In this document: positions 120 through 6,285 of the stretch, in pieces
Numbering within the stretch: the first letter of the stretch is position 1
Layout: every line of letters starts with the position of its first letter
NCBI GenBank assembly: GCA_002256485.1
Contig: NNSG01000001.1
Span: 1 to 64,000 of the forward strand
Origin: Fidelibacterota bacterium 408169
GTDB lineage: Bacteria; Fidelibacterota; Marinisomatia; Marinisomatales; TCS55
Reading direction: 5' to 3'
Length of the DNA: 64,000 nt
The notes under the pieces: generated by a model
Database searches by the model: none
Seen by the model: the letters and a program-made list of their open reading frames with translations, nothing else
Told to the model about the DNA's origin: nothing
Position numbers and translations under genes: made by a program

Positions 120-254
120 GTCTAACGAATAAACTCACCGGCGGACGGCGAATCCATTCTCAAATCTTTTGTTAAATCTCTCAACATAATTTTACCAAAT
201 TTCACTAATCACGCCACCAAGTTTAGCCGTCCGGTGGAGTGGGGGTTATGTAGC
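120..254 (-). repeat. attC site of the Mrr cassette (cassette C)
   Basis: On the minus strand the site starts with GCTACATAAC, the reverse complement of 245-254, which pairs with the start of its own cassette at 1249. It ends with GTTAGAC (126-120), a perfect GTTRRRY core. The arms GGTGGAGTG and CGAATAAACTCACC form an imperfect inverted repeat around an internal stem (CCGTCC with GGACGG). At about 135 bases it is within the usual attC range. The Mrr stop codon lies 7 bases from the site, as is typical of cassettes. Confidence 0.85.
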
Positions 255-260
255 ACATTC

Positions 261-1169
261 TTAAGTTGTAAAATAATCGTCATCTATTTTTTTGAGTTCA
301 TAATTTGACTGAAGACTCACCCCCACATTGAAGTCAATCATCAAATCTGTAAGCTTTTCACCATCAATTAAAACGACTTTATTTTCTATATTTTTAACAT
401 AACGACTTGCTTCTTTTGTGAATACTGATGTTGTGATAAAAATTCCCTTTTTAGCTCTCTGTCCTTGAAGAGCGCCAACAAACTTTTGAATTTCAGGTCG
501 GGATATAGAATTTTCCCATTTTTTGGCTTGTATGTAAATATTGTCTAAACCAAGACGGTCTTCATCAATAATACCATCAATTCCTTCATCACCACTTTGA
601 CCTATTGCTCTTCCTGCTTCTTTTCGGGATCCACCATATCCCATATTTAAAAGTAATTCTACTACTAATTTTTCGAAAAAACTGGGTGATGATTGTTTTA
701 CGCGATTTAATAGTTCAGAGGAAAGGTCATCTCTAATTGTGGAATATGCTAAATCTAATTGTTCTTCAGGTGTTTCAGTTGACAATACTAATTTAGTTTT
801 TTCAGTTACTTTTTTTCTGGTTCCCTTTCTTTCTTGGAATTCAACAAAAGTTGGAAACTGTAGAAGAAATTTTCGATTTATTTTCTCAATATTCTGGTTT
901 AAAACCTTTTTACCTTCATTTGTGATTTTCACATAACCCCGCCTTGGTGATTCTAATAGTCCTGCTTGTTTCATATAAGTTCTCGCCCAACTTACTCGGC
1001 CGTCAAACATATAAGAACGTCCACTCGGAATTAGTACTTTTCTCTCTTCTTCATTCAATTTGAAATGAATTGCCATTTCATCAATATGTTCTCGCAAAGA
1101 CATTTCTTTCCCACCACTCAATGTTTTAAGTAATGGAAGCATAATTGATTCATAATCTGGAATTGGCAT
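261..1169 (-). CDS. Mrr-type restriction endonuclease (integron cassette)
   Basis: This is a 302-residue protein with two parts. Residues 1-95 are an Mrr N-terminal winged-helix domain of the type that recognises DNA. Residues about 160-275 are an Mrr-type PD-(D/E)xK nuclease domain with E166, D198 in GIDG and the Q-A-K triad at 214-216. Enzymes of this family cut foreign, often methylated, DNA, or act as stand-alone defence nucleases. It is the only gene of its cassette, starting about 80 bases inside the boundary and ending just before attC. A GAGAG sequence lies before the ATG. No cognate methylase is present in the window, so a modification-dependent (type IV) role is plausible but inferred. 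Length and motifs look intact. Confidence 0.85.
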   Translation of the reverse strand: MPIPDYESIMLPLLKTLSGGKEMSLREHIDEMAIHFKLNEEERKVLIPSGRSYMFDGRVSWARTYMKQAGLLESPRRGYVKITNEGKKVLNQNIEKINRKFLLQFPTFVEFQERKGTRKKVTEKTKLVLSTETPEEQLDLAYSTIRDDLSSELLNRVKQSSPSFFEKLVVELLLNMGYGGSRKEAGRAIGQSGDEGIDGIIDEDRLGLDNIYIQAKKWENSISRPEIQKFVGALQGQRAKKGIFITTSVFTKEASRYVKNIENKVVLIDGEKLTDLMIDFNVGVSLQSNYELKKIDDDYFTT

Positions 1170-1195: not shown

Positions 1196-1258
1196 GCTAC
1201 ATAACGAATAAACTCACGGGCAGCGTTAGCTGTCCGTGTGGAGTGTGGGTTGTATTGC
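1196..1258 (-). repeat. attC site of the helicase cassette (cassette B)
   Basis: This short site (about 63 bases) is bounded by GCAATACAAC on the minus strand, complementary to its own cassette start at 4175, and by GTTATGTAGC, the first bases of the next cassette. It keeps the AACGAATAAACTCAC and GTGGAGTG arms of the other two sites. The middle is only a short hairpin (GGACAGC with its partner near GCTGTCC), so the variable terminal structure is much reduced. The helicase stop codon is 13 bases away. Confidence 0.83.
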
Positions 1259-1271
1259 TTTTTCATTAATC

Positions 1272-4145
1272 TTAATCTTTTAATTTTTCTAAAACTGAAT
1301 CCAACCATTCTACAATCCTATTCATTAAAGCAAGTTGAACATTTGACCATTCACCTTTATTTTTTGGATATCCGTTGGTTATCATTGTTTTAAAAATCAG
1401 TTTTATTCTTTTCTTTTCGGAATCTGGATCTTCAGAGAGTTCCACATCGTGAAAGAAATAATTTCTCAATTTATTTATGTCCCATCTTACTTTTGTTCTT
1501 CTGTCATCCCTATCTATTATGGGAAATTGAGCATTTTTCCCGCCAGATGACTCATAACAATACTTATACATCATATCAATCCACGTCTTGAATGAACCTT
1601 CATCATCCACTTTGAACACAGGGAGTTTATTAGTGATGTTTTCACATTCTGTAGATGGTTTAAACAATGTTTTTCCATTTAGTTTACTTGACAAACTATT
1701 TATTTCAAATCTTAAAGAAGCTATTTCTCTACCAACTTTTTGTATTTCCTTTTTTATTAGTTTTTCCGTTTTTGTGATTTGTTGATGTTCTTCTACTTTT
1801 TCTTTTTTCTTTTTTGGTTGGGCTGGAGTTTTAGTATCAACATCAATTACTATTTTTTGATTTTCAGGAACTTCATTTAAAATTTCTGTTAATAATTCTT
1901 CTTGTTGTTCTGGGGTCAATTTTTCATAATCAGTAACATTGGATTCAATTTGAATATTACCTAATGAGTGATCCTTCAGTTTAGTTAGTAGTTTAGTTAT
2001 GAATTTCCCCCCATACTGGGATGAGAAATGGTCATAATTGGCAATAACAAATAAAAGTTGTTTTGGTCTCGATAGGGCCACATTTAACAACCGTTTTACT
2101 TTTTCACCTGTTTTCTTTTCATCAAATGGTCGAATGGTATAATTAACACCAGTCATAACAGTATCGAAAATAATAAAATCTTTTTCTCGTCCCTGGAAAG
2201 TATGTACTGACCCGACTTCAACAGAACCTAATCCGTTTTTCCGCAACTCTTTTCTCACATATTGAACACTAGCATTTAGAGGTAAAACTATTCCTATTTC
2301 TTCAGGTTTAAAATGGCCTTCCATTGCAAGATATTTTAAAACTTCAATTATTCGTACAGTGTGCGAAACATTATAGGGCGCAAACTTTTTCCTTCCGGGA
2401 AGCATATCCAACTGTGGGTGTAATGAAGCTGTGTCAATAAAACAAATTCCTTCCATTCCACCATTTGAAGCATTATTGCCATTTTTAAGATTGCCTTTAT
2501 AAAACACATCACTTATAATTTGACTTAATTCACCAGTCATTCTGTATTGGGTGTCTAAAAAATGGGTGAATTCTTTGTTCGAATTGTTCCAATCAAATAA
2601 ATCTTCTATTTCAACACTATTACTCGCATACATATAAATATCTTTTTCCAACCATCTTTTTGCCATCTCTGAATCAGATAAAGAAATAGGAGGCAATTGT
2701 TGAGGGTCACCAATAATAATTACTTTATTATTAACGATAGATGAGAGAATTGCTAAATACGGAAGACTCACCATACTGGCTTCATCAATGATTAACACAT
2801 CACATTCTAATTCAAAGAAAATATCATTGGTCACCATTTTGGCTAAAGTAGCTGCGATAAACTTTTTCTTTTTTAAAATAGATGTTTCATCAATAGCCAA
2901 TGCTTCATCAATAAATTTTTGCAATTTTTCTTCGCCACCAAAATCATCAACTTCTTTCTTTAATTCTTCAAATCTTTCTAAAACAATCTTGTCTATTGGG
3001 CATTCTTTTTTTAGTTCTTCATATTGAATTTTTATTTCATCTAAAGTTTTTTTCAGACTTGTTAAATCTTTTTTCTTTTGATCAAATAATTCATTTAATG
3101 TATCAAGTGAATCACCAAGAAAAACCCGAGAAAGACTTTCAAGAATACCAACATTATCATAATGATCAATTTTATCTTTTATTCCCTTTAATTCACCCAA
3201 AGCCGCATTTAGGACTTTTTGGTTTGATTCTATTTCTTTCTTTTTGTTATTGAAATCAGTCAAATATTCCTGATTTTGGGACATTTTAATTTTCAGCTCT
3301 CTAAATTCTCGATATAGCTTTAGTTCGTCCTTTATTTTTTCTCTTAATTGTTTTCTTATTTCTTCAATTTGGTTTTCAAAAAAAACAGAATCCAAATCTT
3401 CATTATCTAAAATGAATGGTCGCCCATATCGTGTAATGTCATTTGAAAATTCATTTGATTTGCCAAGTCTTTTATAAGCATCAATAACCTGAATTAGGGC
3501 AACATCAACAGCTCTATTAGTATTGGTAGCAAATAAGATTCGCTTACCTTGTTTAATTAAATTATATGTTATAAAACCAAGTGTAGATGTTTTTCCAGTA
3601 CCTGGTGGTCCCCAAATAAAAGATATACGATTTGATAATGAACCTTTGATTGCCTTTCGTTGAGCTTCATTCCTTTGTTTATCAATTTTAATCTTTACCC
3701 CGTTTAGTTCATTTAATACTTTTGTTTTAATTGGATGGAAAAGTATATCTGTAAGTTCAAGGTTAAAATCTTCTGGTTTAGCATCAATAGTTGTTAGTCT
3801 TTCAAGAAGTTTTCTTAAAATTATATCAGAAGACCATTCGATGGTTAATTCTGGAATAAAACCGCCAAGATTTACGGGTGTTTTAAGAGTAATAAATTGA
3901 CTATCAATACTTAATATTTGACCTTCAACAACTTCGCTACCAATAATTAATTCACAATCTTCAATTTGCCCTATTGATGTTCCTTCTGGCAATTCGAATT
4001 TGTATATAAAATCTTCACCTTTCTGGGCGATGAGTTTGCCTTCAAATAGAGTGATAGACTTTTTTGATTTATAAATTTTATCTAACTCATCACCTACCGC
4101 TTGGATCATTGATGGTATGTGATTCTGAATAATATAATCAGCCAT
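1272..4145 (-). CDS. UPF1/DNA2-like SF1 helicase with possible C-terminal HEPN domain
   Basis: This 957-residue superfamily 1 helicase has these motifs in order: Q-motif region (157-166), Walker A GPPGTGKT (179-186), a long charged coiled-coil insertion (about 250-420), Walker B DEAS (about 453), motif III GDPQQLPP, motif IV QYRM, motif V HTFQGRE, and motif VI NVALSRPK. Residues 1-130 look like a small beta-rich N-terminal domain. A lysine-rich linker near 770 leads to a C-terminal helical domain with R894-N-Y-F-F-H899. That matches the Rx4H (RN-x3-H) signature of HEPN RNases. This second activity is inference from the motif only. The gene fills a 3 kb integron cassette, which is unusually long. 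A role in nucleic-acid surveillance or phage defence is plausible but unproven. Confidence 0.82.
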   Translation of the reverse strand: MADYIIQNHIPSMIQAVGDELDKIYKSKKSITLFEGKLIAQKGEDFIYKFELPEGTSIGQIEDCELIIGSEVVEGQILSIDSQFITLKTPVNLGGFIPELTIEWSSDIILRKLLERLTTIDAKPEDFNLELTDILFHPIKTKVLNELNGVKIKIDKQRNEAQRKAIKGSLSNRISFIWGPPGTGKTSTLGFITYNLIKQGKRILFATNTNRAVDVALIQVIDAYKRLGKSNEFSNDITRYGRPFILDNEDLDSVFFENQIEEIRKQLREKIKDELKLYREFRELKIKMSQNQEYLTDFNNKKKEIESNQKVLNAALGELKGIKDKIDHYDNVGILESLSRVFLGDSLDTLNELFDQKKKDLTSLKKTLDEIKIQYEELKKECPIDKIVLERFEELKKEVDDFGGEEKLQKFIDEALAIDETSILKKKKFIAATLAKMVTNDIFFELECDVLIIDEASMVSLPYLAILSSIVNNKVIIIGDPQQLPPISLSDSEMAKRWLEKDIYMYASNSVEIEDLFDWNNSNKEFTHFLDTQYRMTGELSQIISDVFYKGNLKNGNNASNGGMEGICFIDTASLHPQLDMLPGRKKFAPYNVSHTVRIIEVLKYLAMEGHFKPEEIGIVLPLNASVQYVRKELRKNGLGSVEVGSVHTFQGREKDFIIFDTVMTGVNYTIRPFDEKKTGEKVKRLLNVALSRPKQLLFVIANYDHFSSQYGGKFITKLLTKLKDHSLGNIQIESNVTDYEKLTPEQQEELLTEILNEVPENQKIVIDVDTKTPAQPKKKKEKVEEHQQITKTEKLIKKEIQKVGREIASLRFEINSLSSKLNGKTLFKPSTECENITNKLPVFKVDDEGSFKTWIDMMYKYCYESSGGKNAQFPIIDRDDRRTKVRWDINKLRNYFFHDVELSEDPDSEKKRIKLIFKTMITNGYPKNKGEWSNVQLALMNRIVEWLDSVLEKLKD

Positions 4146-4165: not shown

Positions 4166-4310
4166 GCAATACAACGAATAAACTCACCGGAGGTGGACGG
4201 CGATTCTATACCACTATTTTTTGTTTTTACACAAATCTTCATTTTGTCTCAAATCTCAAATTCACCGCACGAGTTTAGCCGCCCGGTGGAGTGGGGGTTA
4301 GAAGGTGTGC
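4166..4310 (-). repeat. attC site of the NfeD-SPFH cassette (cassette A)
   Basis: On the minus strand the site starts GCACACCTTCTAAC, an exact reverse complement of the cassette start GTTAGAAGGTGTGC at 5811-5798, a 14-base match. It ends GTTGTATTGC, which is the start of the helicase cassette. It carries the same AACGAATAAACTCACC and GGTGGAGTG arms and an internal GGCGGCTAAAC / CGCCGTCC stem. At about 145 bases it resembles the attC at 120-254 closely, as expected for a chromosomal integron with a uniform attC family. Confidence 0.87.
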
Positions 4311-4327: not shown

Positions 4328-5320
4328 CTATTTTTTACCTACCCCAGAAAGCATGTCTTTTATTCCACCAATTGAACTCAAAACGCCTGTTGCTTCGTAT
4401 GGTAAATACACAACTTTATTATTTTGTCCAGAAACCATTTCTTTTAATGTCTCGATATATCGAACTGCAATCAGATAATTTGCTGGGTCACCTTTGGACG
4501 CTGAAATTGCTTCGGTAATTCTATCTATTGCTTCTTTTTCTGCCGTTGCAACTTTTATCCGGGCTTCTGCTTCACCTTCAGCCTGCAAAATCGCCGACTT
4601 TTTTTCACCTTCAGCCATATTTATTGCAGATTCCTTAACACCTTCAGATTCAAGGATTGCTGCTTTTTTCTTTCCTTCTGCTTCAAGAATGGAAGCACGA
4701 CGGTCTCTTTCAGCACGCATTTGTTGTTCCATTGCCTTTTGAATTTCTGGTGGTGGTGTAATATCTTGGAGTTCAACTCTATTAACTTTGACACCCCATT
4801 TATCCGTAGCTTCGTCAAGAATTGCTCGAAGTTTAGTATTTATAACATCTCTTGAAACAAGGCATTCGTCCAAATCCAATTCACCAAGCACATTACGAAG
4901 TGTGGTTTGGGTAAGTTTCTCAATTGCATTTGGAAGATTGGCAATTTCGTAAGTTGATTTTACAGGGTCAGTAATTTGAAAGTAAAGCATAGCGTCAATT
5001 TCAATTGTTACATTGTCTTTCGTTATTACATTTTGTCTTGGGAAATCAAAGACTTGTTCTCGTAAATCAATTTTACTTGTCATCTTTTGTGTTACAATGT
5101 CTTCCCCAGAAACATCCGTTTTTCTATATCGCCAAAAAATACTTCTGGATTTATCGAAAACAGGAATGATAATATTTATCCCGCTTTCCAACGTCCTGTT
5201 GTATTTACCCAATCTTTCAATGACCATTGTTTCAGCCTGTTGAATAATTTTAAACCCACTCGCTACAAAAATAATTACAAAAATAGTAGCGACGATTGTT
5301 ATGATTAACATTGCATCCAT
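4328..5320 (-). CDS. SPFH/band 7 (stomatin-slipin) membrane protein
   Basis: This protein of about 330 residues has one N-terminal membrane helix (roughly residues 4-24), an SPFH/band 7 domain (about 25-200), a helical stretch rich in AEGxxKxAI repeats typical of stomatin-like and QmcA proteins (about 200-265), and a glycine-rich tail. Such proteins form oligomeric rings or scaffolds in membrane microdomains and partner with NfeD proteins. I chose the ATG at 5320, one base after the NfeD stop, over an upstream ATG that overlaps NfeD by 32 bases. The NfeD-SPFH pair is the sole content of the first integron cassette, an uncommon cargo. Function inside the cassette is unknown. Confidence 0.85.
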   Translation of the reverse strand: MDAMLIITIVATIFVIIFVASGFKIIQQAETMVIERLGKYNRTLESGINIIIPVFDKSRSIFWRYRKTDVSGEDIVTQKMTSKIDLREQVFDFPRQNVITKDNVTIEIDAMLYFQITDPVKSTYEIANLPNAIEKLTQTTLRNVLGELDLDECLVSRDVINTKLRAILDEATDKWGVKVNRVELQDITPPPEIQKAMEQQMRAERDRRASILEAEGKKKAAILESEGVKESAINMAEGEKKSAILQAEGEAEARIKVATAEKEAIDRITEAISASKGDPANYLIAVRYIETLKEMVSGQNNKVVYLPYEATGVLSSIGGIKDMLSGVGKK

Positions 5321-5321
5321 T

Positions 5322-5771
5322 TTATGACCCCTTATTTTCTGTTGAAGAAACAAACAGGGTAGAACCTTCTACCTTGCTTACTTTGATTAAATCACCAATT
5401 TCAAATAATTCATCATTTGCCGACCGTGCCCGCCAACTTTCACTGCCAATCTGCACTCTGCCCAAATTTTCAGAATTATTTATGTTTTCAGTTACCTTGT
5501 AATTATTACCGATAAACGCATTTACACCTGTTTCTCTTTGGTCGTCCAATTTGTGAAAGTATTTATTATACAAAGGTCGAATACCAAAAAAGACAATCAT
5601 AGTTACGACTGAAAAAACAAATAATTGAACTTTAAACTCATAGTCCCAATAGGCGAATAGACTTCCACCAAAAGCACCAATCCCAAAACTCGCTAAAAGA
5701 AAGCCTGGTGTAAATATTTCAGCTATCATTAAAATGATGCCGAAGATTATCCAATAATGATGTATTTCCAT
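5322..5771 (-). CDS. NfeD-like membrane protein
   Basis: This 149-residue short-form NfeD protein has two to three N-terminal hydrophobic segments (about 7-70) and a C-terminal OB-fold-like beta domain (about 85-145) with the pattern G-x-V-x-I-G-x-E-x-W-R-A near residues 106-116. NfeD proteins associate with SPFH proteins, here encoded immediately downstream and probably co-translated. An AGGA motif lies about 10 bases before the ATG. The gene starts 40 bases inside the cassette boundary at 5810, making it the cassette gene nearest the former attI site and so the one most exposed to a cassette promoter. Confidence 0.82.
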   Translation of the reverse strand: MEIHHYWIIFGIILMIAEIFTPGFLLASFGIGAFGGSLFAYWDYEFKVQLFVFSVVTMIVFFGIRPLYNKYFHKLDDQRETGVNAFIGNNYKVTENINNSENLGRVQIGSESWRARSANDELFEIGDLIKVSKVEGSTLFVSSTENKGS

Positions 5772-5810
5772 AATTGTAGGTTCCTTTTTTTAAATTAGCA
5801 CACCTTCTAA

Positions 5811-5933
5811 CTACTTATTATACTACAAATATGCAACATAGCGCCCCGATCTTGTGTGTTATACTGTATTTGTAATATTTCATTCATAAGCTAAATTCCA
5901 AACAAATATTAATCATAAATACACTAATAAACC
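5811..5933. other. Presumed former attI/promoter region of the integron
   Basis: These 123 bases separate the first cassette boundary (G5811) from the integrase start codon. In integrons this is where attI and the cassette promoter lie. No full attC is present here: the GCACACCTTCTAAC end at 5798-5811 is not followed by the conserved attC arms, which fits an attI junction. The stretch is AT-rich and otherwise featureless. Confidence 0.55.
5817..5822 (-). promoter_or_regulatory. Possible -10 box of the cassette promoter
   Basis: A perfect TATAAT reads toward the cassettes from 5822 to 5817, just outside the first cassette junction. I found no convincing -35 element 16-18 bases upstream, so this could be chance in AT-rich DNA. 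The position is suitable for driving the NfeD-SPFH cassette. Confidence 0.3.
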
Positions 5934-6221
5934 ATGTCAATACTATTAAGTCAAGTCAGTGAAAAAATTCGATTAAGGCATTACAGCTATCGGACAGAGA
6001 AAACATATAAACATTGGATAAAACACTATATCCTTTATCATAATAAAACCCATCCAAACCAGTTAGACGGGGAGGCATTCAATGCATACTTAACATATTT
6101 AGCCAAAGAAAAGAAAGTTTCTGCGGCAACGCAAAACCTGGCAAGGAATGCAATCTTGTTTTTATATAAGCATGTTCTGAACAAAGGACCATTGGCTATT
6201 AAAAGTCCTTTAGATTCATGA
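5934..6221 (+). pseudogene. intI: Truncated integron integrase (N-terminal fragment)
   Basis: The 95-residue product matches the N-terminal SAM-like core-binding domain of integron tyrosine recombinases. It has the typical run from the start through RLRHYSYRTEKTYKHWI and a middle part around AYLTYLAKEKKVSAATQ and FLYKHVL. Full-length IntI is about 320 residues. Here the frame stops after residue 95, before the catalytic R, H-x-x-R and Y residues, and no further integrase sequence follows in any frame before msrA. The gene is therefore a 3'-truncated remnant. Its divergent orientation relative to the cassettes is exactly that of a functional integron. A palindromic element begins 11 bases past the stop and may mark the deletion. 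Confidence 0.85.
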
Positions 6222-6231
6222 AACTAAAGCT

Positions 6232-6280
6232 GTACGACAAACATTCCTGTTTGTCGTAGTGCAAACAGGAATGTTTGTAC
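6232..6280. repeat. Nested palindromic element next to the truncated integrase
   Basis: Two short hairpins, CGACAAACA-ttcc-TGTTTGTCG (6235-6256) and GTGCAAACA-ggaa-TGTTTGTAC (6259-6280), are themselves arranged as an inverted repeat of each other. A similar small hairpin occurs at 6999-7020. This looks like a dispersed REP-like or miniature element. It lies between the convergent integrase fragment and msrA and could also act as a terminator. Confidence 0.6.
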
Positions 6281-6285
6281 TACAT

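Follow-up and report, generated by a model that had tools for sequence, protein, structure and literature searches.

Helicases coupled with HEPN RNases are a known theme of defence, and the original prediction, which placed the gene discussed here within that theme, agrees with the literature: fusions of SF-I helicases with HEPN domains, linked to restriction-type defence, have been published (PMC3710099), and in the CoCoNuT systems the UPF1-like helicase CnuH works with the HEPN effector CnuE (PMC11090510). The published fusions are giant proteins, in which an N-terminal HEPN domain comes together with transglutaminase, Vsr and wHTH domains (PMC3710099). In CoCoNuT, the effectors linked to the helicase are of the HEPN, PLD or Vsr type and are sometimes fused to it: CnuE itself is HEPN, or PLD in type III-C, and Vsr is directly fused in type III-B (PMC11090510). 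The Mokosh systems (MkoA/MkoB, MkoC) also make use of a UPF1-like helicase, and HEPN genes have already been met in integron cassettes, in a family reported without a helicase (PDB 3jrt, PMC3710099). As for the integrons themselves, the coding sequences of sedentary chromosomal ones have a median length of 362 bp (PMC5371416), the defence genes of integrons are reported as streamlined, large systems being absent, and the function of most cassettes is unknown (PMC12409362).

Set beside these systems, the locus that we describe here may be a chromosomal integron cassette of the defence type, with a single gene that codes for a UPF1-like SF1 helicase ending in what is most likely a divergent HEPN RNase; we give this reading as a whole about an even chance. 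The gene occupies positions 1272-4145, on the minus strand of the window (the whole stretch of 64,000 nucleotides that was analysed, from Fidelibacterota bacterium 408169). It is one intact open reading frame of 2,874 bp, the only one of its cassette, while stops crowd the plus strand, and its product of 957 residues is the UPF1-like helicase that had been announced: Pfam recognizes AAA_11 (9e-31) and AAA_12 (2.8e-26), the two RecA domains are present, and the signature motifs of SF1 are all intact, from the Walker A motif GPPGTGKT (179) and the Walker B motif DEAS (454) to GDPQQLPP (479), FQGRE (650) and NVALSR (688), in a core that spans residues 159-703 (2037..3671, minus strand, by Pfam and motif inspection). 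The related solved structures in the PDB are those of NAM7/UPF1, DNA2, Sen1 and SMUBP-2, and the NCBIfam search gave a partial match to the IGHMBP2-family model. UPF1-like helicases are known to fill many housekeeping roles. Between Walker A and Walker B, alignment delimits a long charged insertion (approximately residues 250-425; 2871..3398, minus strand), the sequence of which suggests a coiled coil; the two motifs are 275 residues apart, where most relatives have 132-173 and one of them (L065) has 256. The layout is best explained as an N-terminal OB/stalk-like region, RecA1, the coiled-coil-like insertion, RecA2, a lysine-rich linker, a long helix and a C-terminal effector-like domain. The predicted long helix (residues 778-823; 1677..1814, minus strand), behind the linker, is the best part of the AlphaFold model (block pLDDT of about 50-74), and it is possible that it is a dimerising coiled coil.

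This architecture is reminiscent of CoCoNuT types II and III, with which it has in common a UPF1-like SF1 helicase, an insertion of coiled-coil appearance after Walker A and an OB/stalk region. It differs from them in that a single gene is involved, without a McrB or McrC homologue and without a wHTH domain, the HEPN identity of its effector being that of a candidate; Pfam recognized no SmpB-like or RelE-like domain in the protein, and neither CnuB (McrB-like) nor CnuC genes are found in the helicase cassette or in the neighbouring ones. With the published SF-I helicase-HEPN fusions (PMC3710099) it would share the presence of the two activities in one polypeptide, but here the candidate HEPN domain is C-terminal, and transglutaminase, Vsr and wHTH are absent. 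The likeness to the integron-borne HEPN family (PDB 3jrt, PMC3710099) is that of a HEPN-type protein, again a candidate in our case, housed in an integron, whereas the window codes for a fusion of 957 residues.

The case for a true integron cassette derives from the complementarity between cassette starts and attC ends. Three successive cassettes each begin with the exact complement (10-14 nt) of the R'' end of their own attC site: GTTAGAAGGTGTGC (5811) with GCACACCTTCTAAC (4310) for cassette 1, GTTGTATTGC at 4175-4166 with GCAATACAAC at 1258-1249 for cassette 2, that of the helicase, and GTTATGTAGC (1205) with GCTACATAAC (254) for cassette 3. All the attC sites have GAGTTTATTCGTT in common at their 3' ends, and shuffled sequence never gives three. 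The view of the helicase gene as integron cargo therefore stands, with cassette bounds at 4174-1205 (2,970 bp, minus strand) and three attC sites in the array. That of the helicase cassette, 57 nt long (1199..1255, minus strand), folds better than its shuffles (z = -3.4); the generic fold of the sites that belong to the preceding cassette (135 nt, 4169..4303) and to the following one (132 nt, 120..251), both on the minus strand, is no better than that of shuffles. Starting from attI, whose core GTTAGAA (5805..5811, minus strand) marks the start of cassette 1 in a region shared with a sister species that has an intact integron, the array consists of an NfeD plus SPFH cassette (1,636 bp), the helicase and a Mrr type IV cassette (1,079 bp), after which the contig stops, 0.1 kb past cassette 3; the array was read only up to there. 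A coding sequence of 2,874 bp, against the median of 362 bp (PMC5371416), places the helicase cassette far above the usual size, as had been remarked from the start. Cassette 3 codes for a Mrr-type IV restriction endonuclease of 302 aa (261..1169, minus strand; PADLOC mREase_IV, 291 bits), and the proximity of a type IV restriction enzyme is among the reasons that make us favour a defence-type reading. Cassette 1 (4328..5771, minus strand, by Pfam) combines an NfeD-like gene (5322-5771) with a SPFH/Band 7 gene (4328-5353), a membrane-quality module that is seldom expected as integron cargo. The GAGTTTATTCGTT core is found again elsewhere in this genome, in an attC-like site about 110 bp short of an end of contig C23 (L080, ~1490-1570), where we probably see the other extremity of the array.

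Beside attI, in place of a functional intI, there is a remnant of 95 aa with an internal deletion (5934..6221, plus strand), recognized by comparison with the intact IntI (319 aa, 432.8 bits) of another genome in the genus (G109). The two ends of that protein are matched by the first 84 residues of the remnant at 87% identity and by its last 19 at 68%, hence the middle was deleted in frame. As a consequence, the cassettes of the array are probably frozen. In the sister genome G110, the corresponding position, next to msrA and pntAB, is occupied by another internally deleted intI, so that in-frame deletions with different breakpoints are found in two genomes of the genus (window 5934-6221; L166 9918-10874, L167 6308-6850), the gene being intact in a third: the middle part of the integrase has been repeatedly lost within the genus. 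An IntI-like integrase on contig C47 was considered as the missing integron integrase and discarded, since the middle segment of the model, which is specific to integrons, is absent from it. Between the remnant and msrA, an inverted repeat (TACGACAAACATTCCTGTTTGTCGTA..., window 6238-6284) recurs in the sister genome (L167 6246-6292), where it is adjoined by what looks like a REP-associated transposase (L167 5680-6156); the repeat may thus be a REP-like element.

It is in its C-terminal part that the helicase stands apart from its kin. Scanning a genome collection of 85,000 species with the subfamily pattern QLxPIS-9-WLxxDI[FY] gave 41 genome loci which, with three more on plasmids, make about 44 relatives, in Bacillota, Cyanobacteriota, Chloroflexota, Bacteroidota and others (loci L008, L009, L012, L029-L069). 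They match the N-terminal region and the helicase core at 25-30% identity, and the tail of the window protein, or its motif, is present in none of these core relatives: its C-terminal domain is unlike those of all of them. Most of the relatives run on into another C-terminal domain, some being short there, and those of cyanobacteria and Chloroflexi have additional zinc ribbons at the C-terminal end. A verrucomicrobial relative (L054 2441-4078, minus strand), in which the N-terminal part is missing from the reading frame, displays in its C-terminal domain a PLD HKD motif of active appearance, HQKFAVIDRKILWEGS; the corresponding domain of other relatives, devoid of the HKD signature, is PLD-like in our reading. 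In a MAFFT alignment, ENQKIVIDVD of the window protein sits next to the start of the C-terminal domain of a Bacillota relative, and downstream of it come the lysine-rich linker, the long helix and the orphan domain, which suggests, from this one alignment, a domain swap at that point. With the same core carrying other C-terminal domains in the relatives, we may take the position as an interchangeable effector slot. The window protein itself is absent from the other genomes of the genus and of the phylum that were searched.

In the window protein this slot is filled by an orphan helical domain, residues 826-957 (1275..1670, minus strand), a candidate HEPN delimited by profile searches and AlphaFold. 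Members of the HEPN superfamily share an R-x4-6-H motif, most often with N after the R, placed in the motif helix of a four-helix bundle, and act as metal-independent RNases with a composite site formed by a dimer. That the tail has this fold is, in our estimate, slightly more likely than not. The most serious contender, substantial if well short of an even chance, would have it as a helical domain foreign to HEPN, involved in nucleic-acid binding, oligomerisation or partner docking, the RNx3H motif being coincidental and the PLD-like domain lost; in that case the protein would be a helicase ending in an orphan helical domain. The motif at the root of the original prediction, R894-N-x-x-x-H899, is there indeed, as RNYFFH (R894-N-Y-F-F-H899; 1449..1466, minus strand), of the HEPN type R-x4-6-H and the only Rx4H of the 957 residues. 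When the whole protein is shuffled, 36% of the sequences contain Rx4H and 2.3% contain RNx3H, and when the shuffling is limited to residues 826-957, RNx3H appears in 0.4%: Rx4H alone means little, while RNx3H within the tail is mildly unusual, and this speaks against coincidence. In the phylum, the string LRNxFxHD is carried, apart from the window protein and a single HEPN-like one, by two long open reading frames, taken as controls, that are clearly not HEPN (L174, L190), a chance recurrence that the non-HEPN reading would predict. Taken with the shuffling rates, it makes the motif suggestive, not diagnostic.

The surroundings of the motif bear on the same choice. The best PHROG match of the tail, chosen after the fact as such, is phrog_5483 (E 0.028, not significant), aligned at the motif. 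The family has members reading NKLRNxFxHD (motif contexts side by side: AELNKLRNRFVHDIDIKL for a phrog_5483 member, DINKLRNYFFHDVELSED), and such close flanking residues are again not what a foreign domain would lead us to expect. The family has five matches in the phylum; four of them, all small proteins, contain RN-x3-H (LNKLRNRFVHDIDI, LRQIRNSFAHDLDF, LNKVRNKCSHE, LSEIRNQVIHD), and three of these four have weak matches to Abi_2, HEPN_Cthe2314, DUF4145 and Csm6-HEPN. A HEPN-like protein of this family (165 aa, LNKLRNRFVHD), of unassigned function, is encoded in another genome of the phylum (L117 1435-1938). On the profile of the four proteins the tail scores 9.3 bits, a value equalled by 1 of 2,000 shuffles and by 44 of 2,000 motif-preserving shuffles, and HHalign against the PHROG 5483 set confines the likeness to 16 residues around the motif, with a probability of 8.6%.

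Beyond the motif, the searches returned what a non-HEPN domain would also produce. None of the curated HEPN models of Pfam and NCBIfam matches the tail, a HepT-like HEPN profile gives it -1.1 bits, the same as shuffles, and a sequence search of the PDB yielded nothing of note. Homologues of the tail were not detectable in 245 genomes of the phylum, 72,556 plasmids and 50,697 phages; tblastn against the plasmids and phages returned chance matches only (E 4-7), and weak matches in the phylum (G078, G220) were set aside as unrelated proteins without the motif. In viral contigs, the exact-peptide search with the tail and the degenerate motif scans found no match and the alignment query retrieved generic helicases only, while the exact-peptide search with the whole protein gave no relatives in genome and viral collections. 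AlphaFold models made without homologues for residues 775-957 and 826-957 (pLDDT 46.6 and 45.3) predict helices at low confidence, RNYFFHD falling in a helix in both, and Foldseek associates both models with coiled-coil or unrelated noise and with no HEPN. The structure predictions of the C-terminal part gave helices, at low confidence, and no confident fold of any kind; as for the HEPN RNase itself, it keeps in its favour the RNx3H motif and the weak, motif-centred likeness to phrog_5483, curated models staying silent. The long helix and the lysine-rich linker would fit a binding or oligomerising module as well.

It is much less probable that the gene codes for a defence protein of the Mokosh type, akin to MkoA or MkoC, the usual partner or PLD part of which was lost or replaced. 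MkoA is the best PADLOC model (171 bits, with MkoC at 88 bits), as it is for relatives of the same subfamily, one of which has an active PLD motif; however, the match is confined to positions 576-1099 of the 1112 of the model, its helicase half, and every relative tested scores similarly, which reflects shared helicase ancestry only. Membership was rejected because there is no PLD domain or HKD motif in the protein, nor PLD or partner gene in the cassette. Least likely of all is a non-defence accessory RNA/DNA helicase, active in repair or RNA turnover and caught as an ordinary cassette, which would suit the housekeeping roles of the family and the obscurity of most integron cargo, but not the absence of the gene from all other genomes of the genus and phylum searched, the adjoining type IV restriction cassette, or the nuclease-type domain that occupies the C-terminal slot of at least one relative.

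We can now return to the reading that we prefer, a defence-type helicase with a HEPN tail, and consider how it might work. The active site of HEPN enzymes is normally built from two motifs of a dimer. As the protein has one, the long helix that precedes the tail would be a natural dimerising element, and since the cassette provides no antitoxin or partner gene, control would have to be internal, via the helicase. The latter would act as sensor and motor, and the tail as effector: during infection the motor would engage foreign or aberrant RNA (or ssDNA), and an ATP-driven movement or conformational change would free the tail, two tails, paired via the long helix, then forming a composite Rx4H site that would cleave RNA and stop the growth of the phage or that of the cell.

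Tentatively, at somewhat under an even chance, we would go as far as to propose a self-contained defence protein of a kind not described before, where a UPF1-like RNA helicase, a dimerising helix and a C-terminal HEPN RNase, the latter replacing the PLD-like domain of the relatives, are carried by an exceptionally large cassette that needs neither McrBC nor an antitoxin as a partner. If this is true, a single portable gene is enough to link a sensor helicase of the UPF1 type with a HEPN RNase, and the multi-gene logic of CoCoNuT, with CnuH and CnuE, would have been shrunk to one cassette. The idea that integrons store defences against phages would then extend to genes far larger than those of the streamlined cassettes known until now, and beyond Vibrio, and the helicase-HEPN cassette would make a simple system for understanding how the movement of a helicase controls an RNase.
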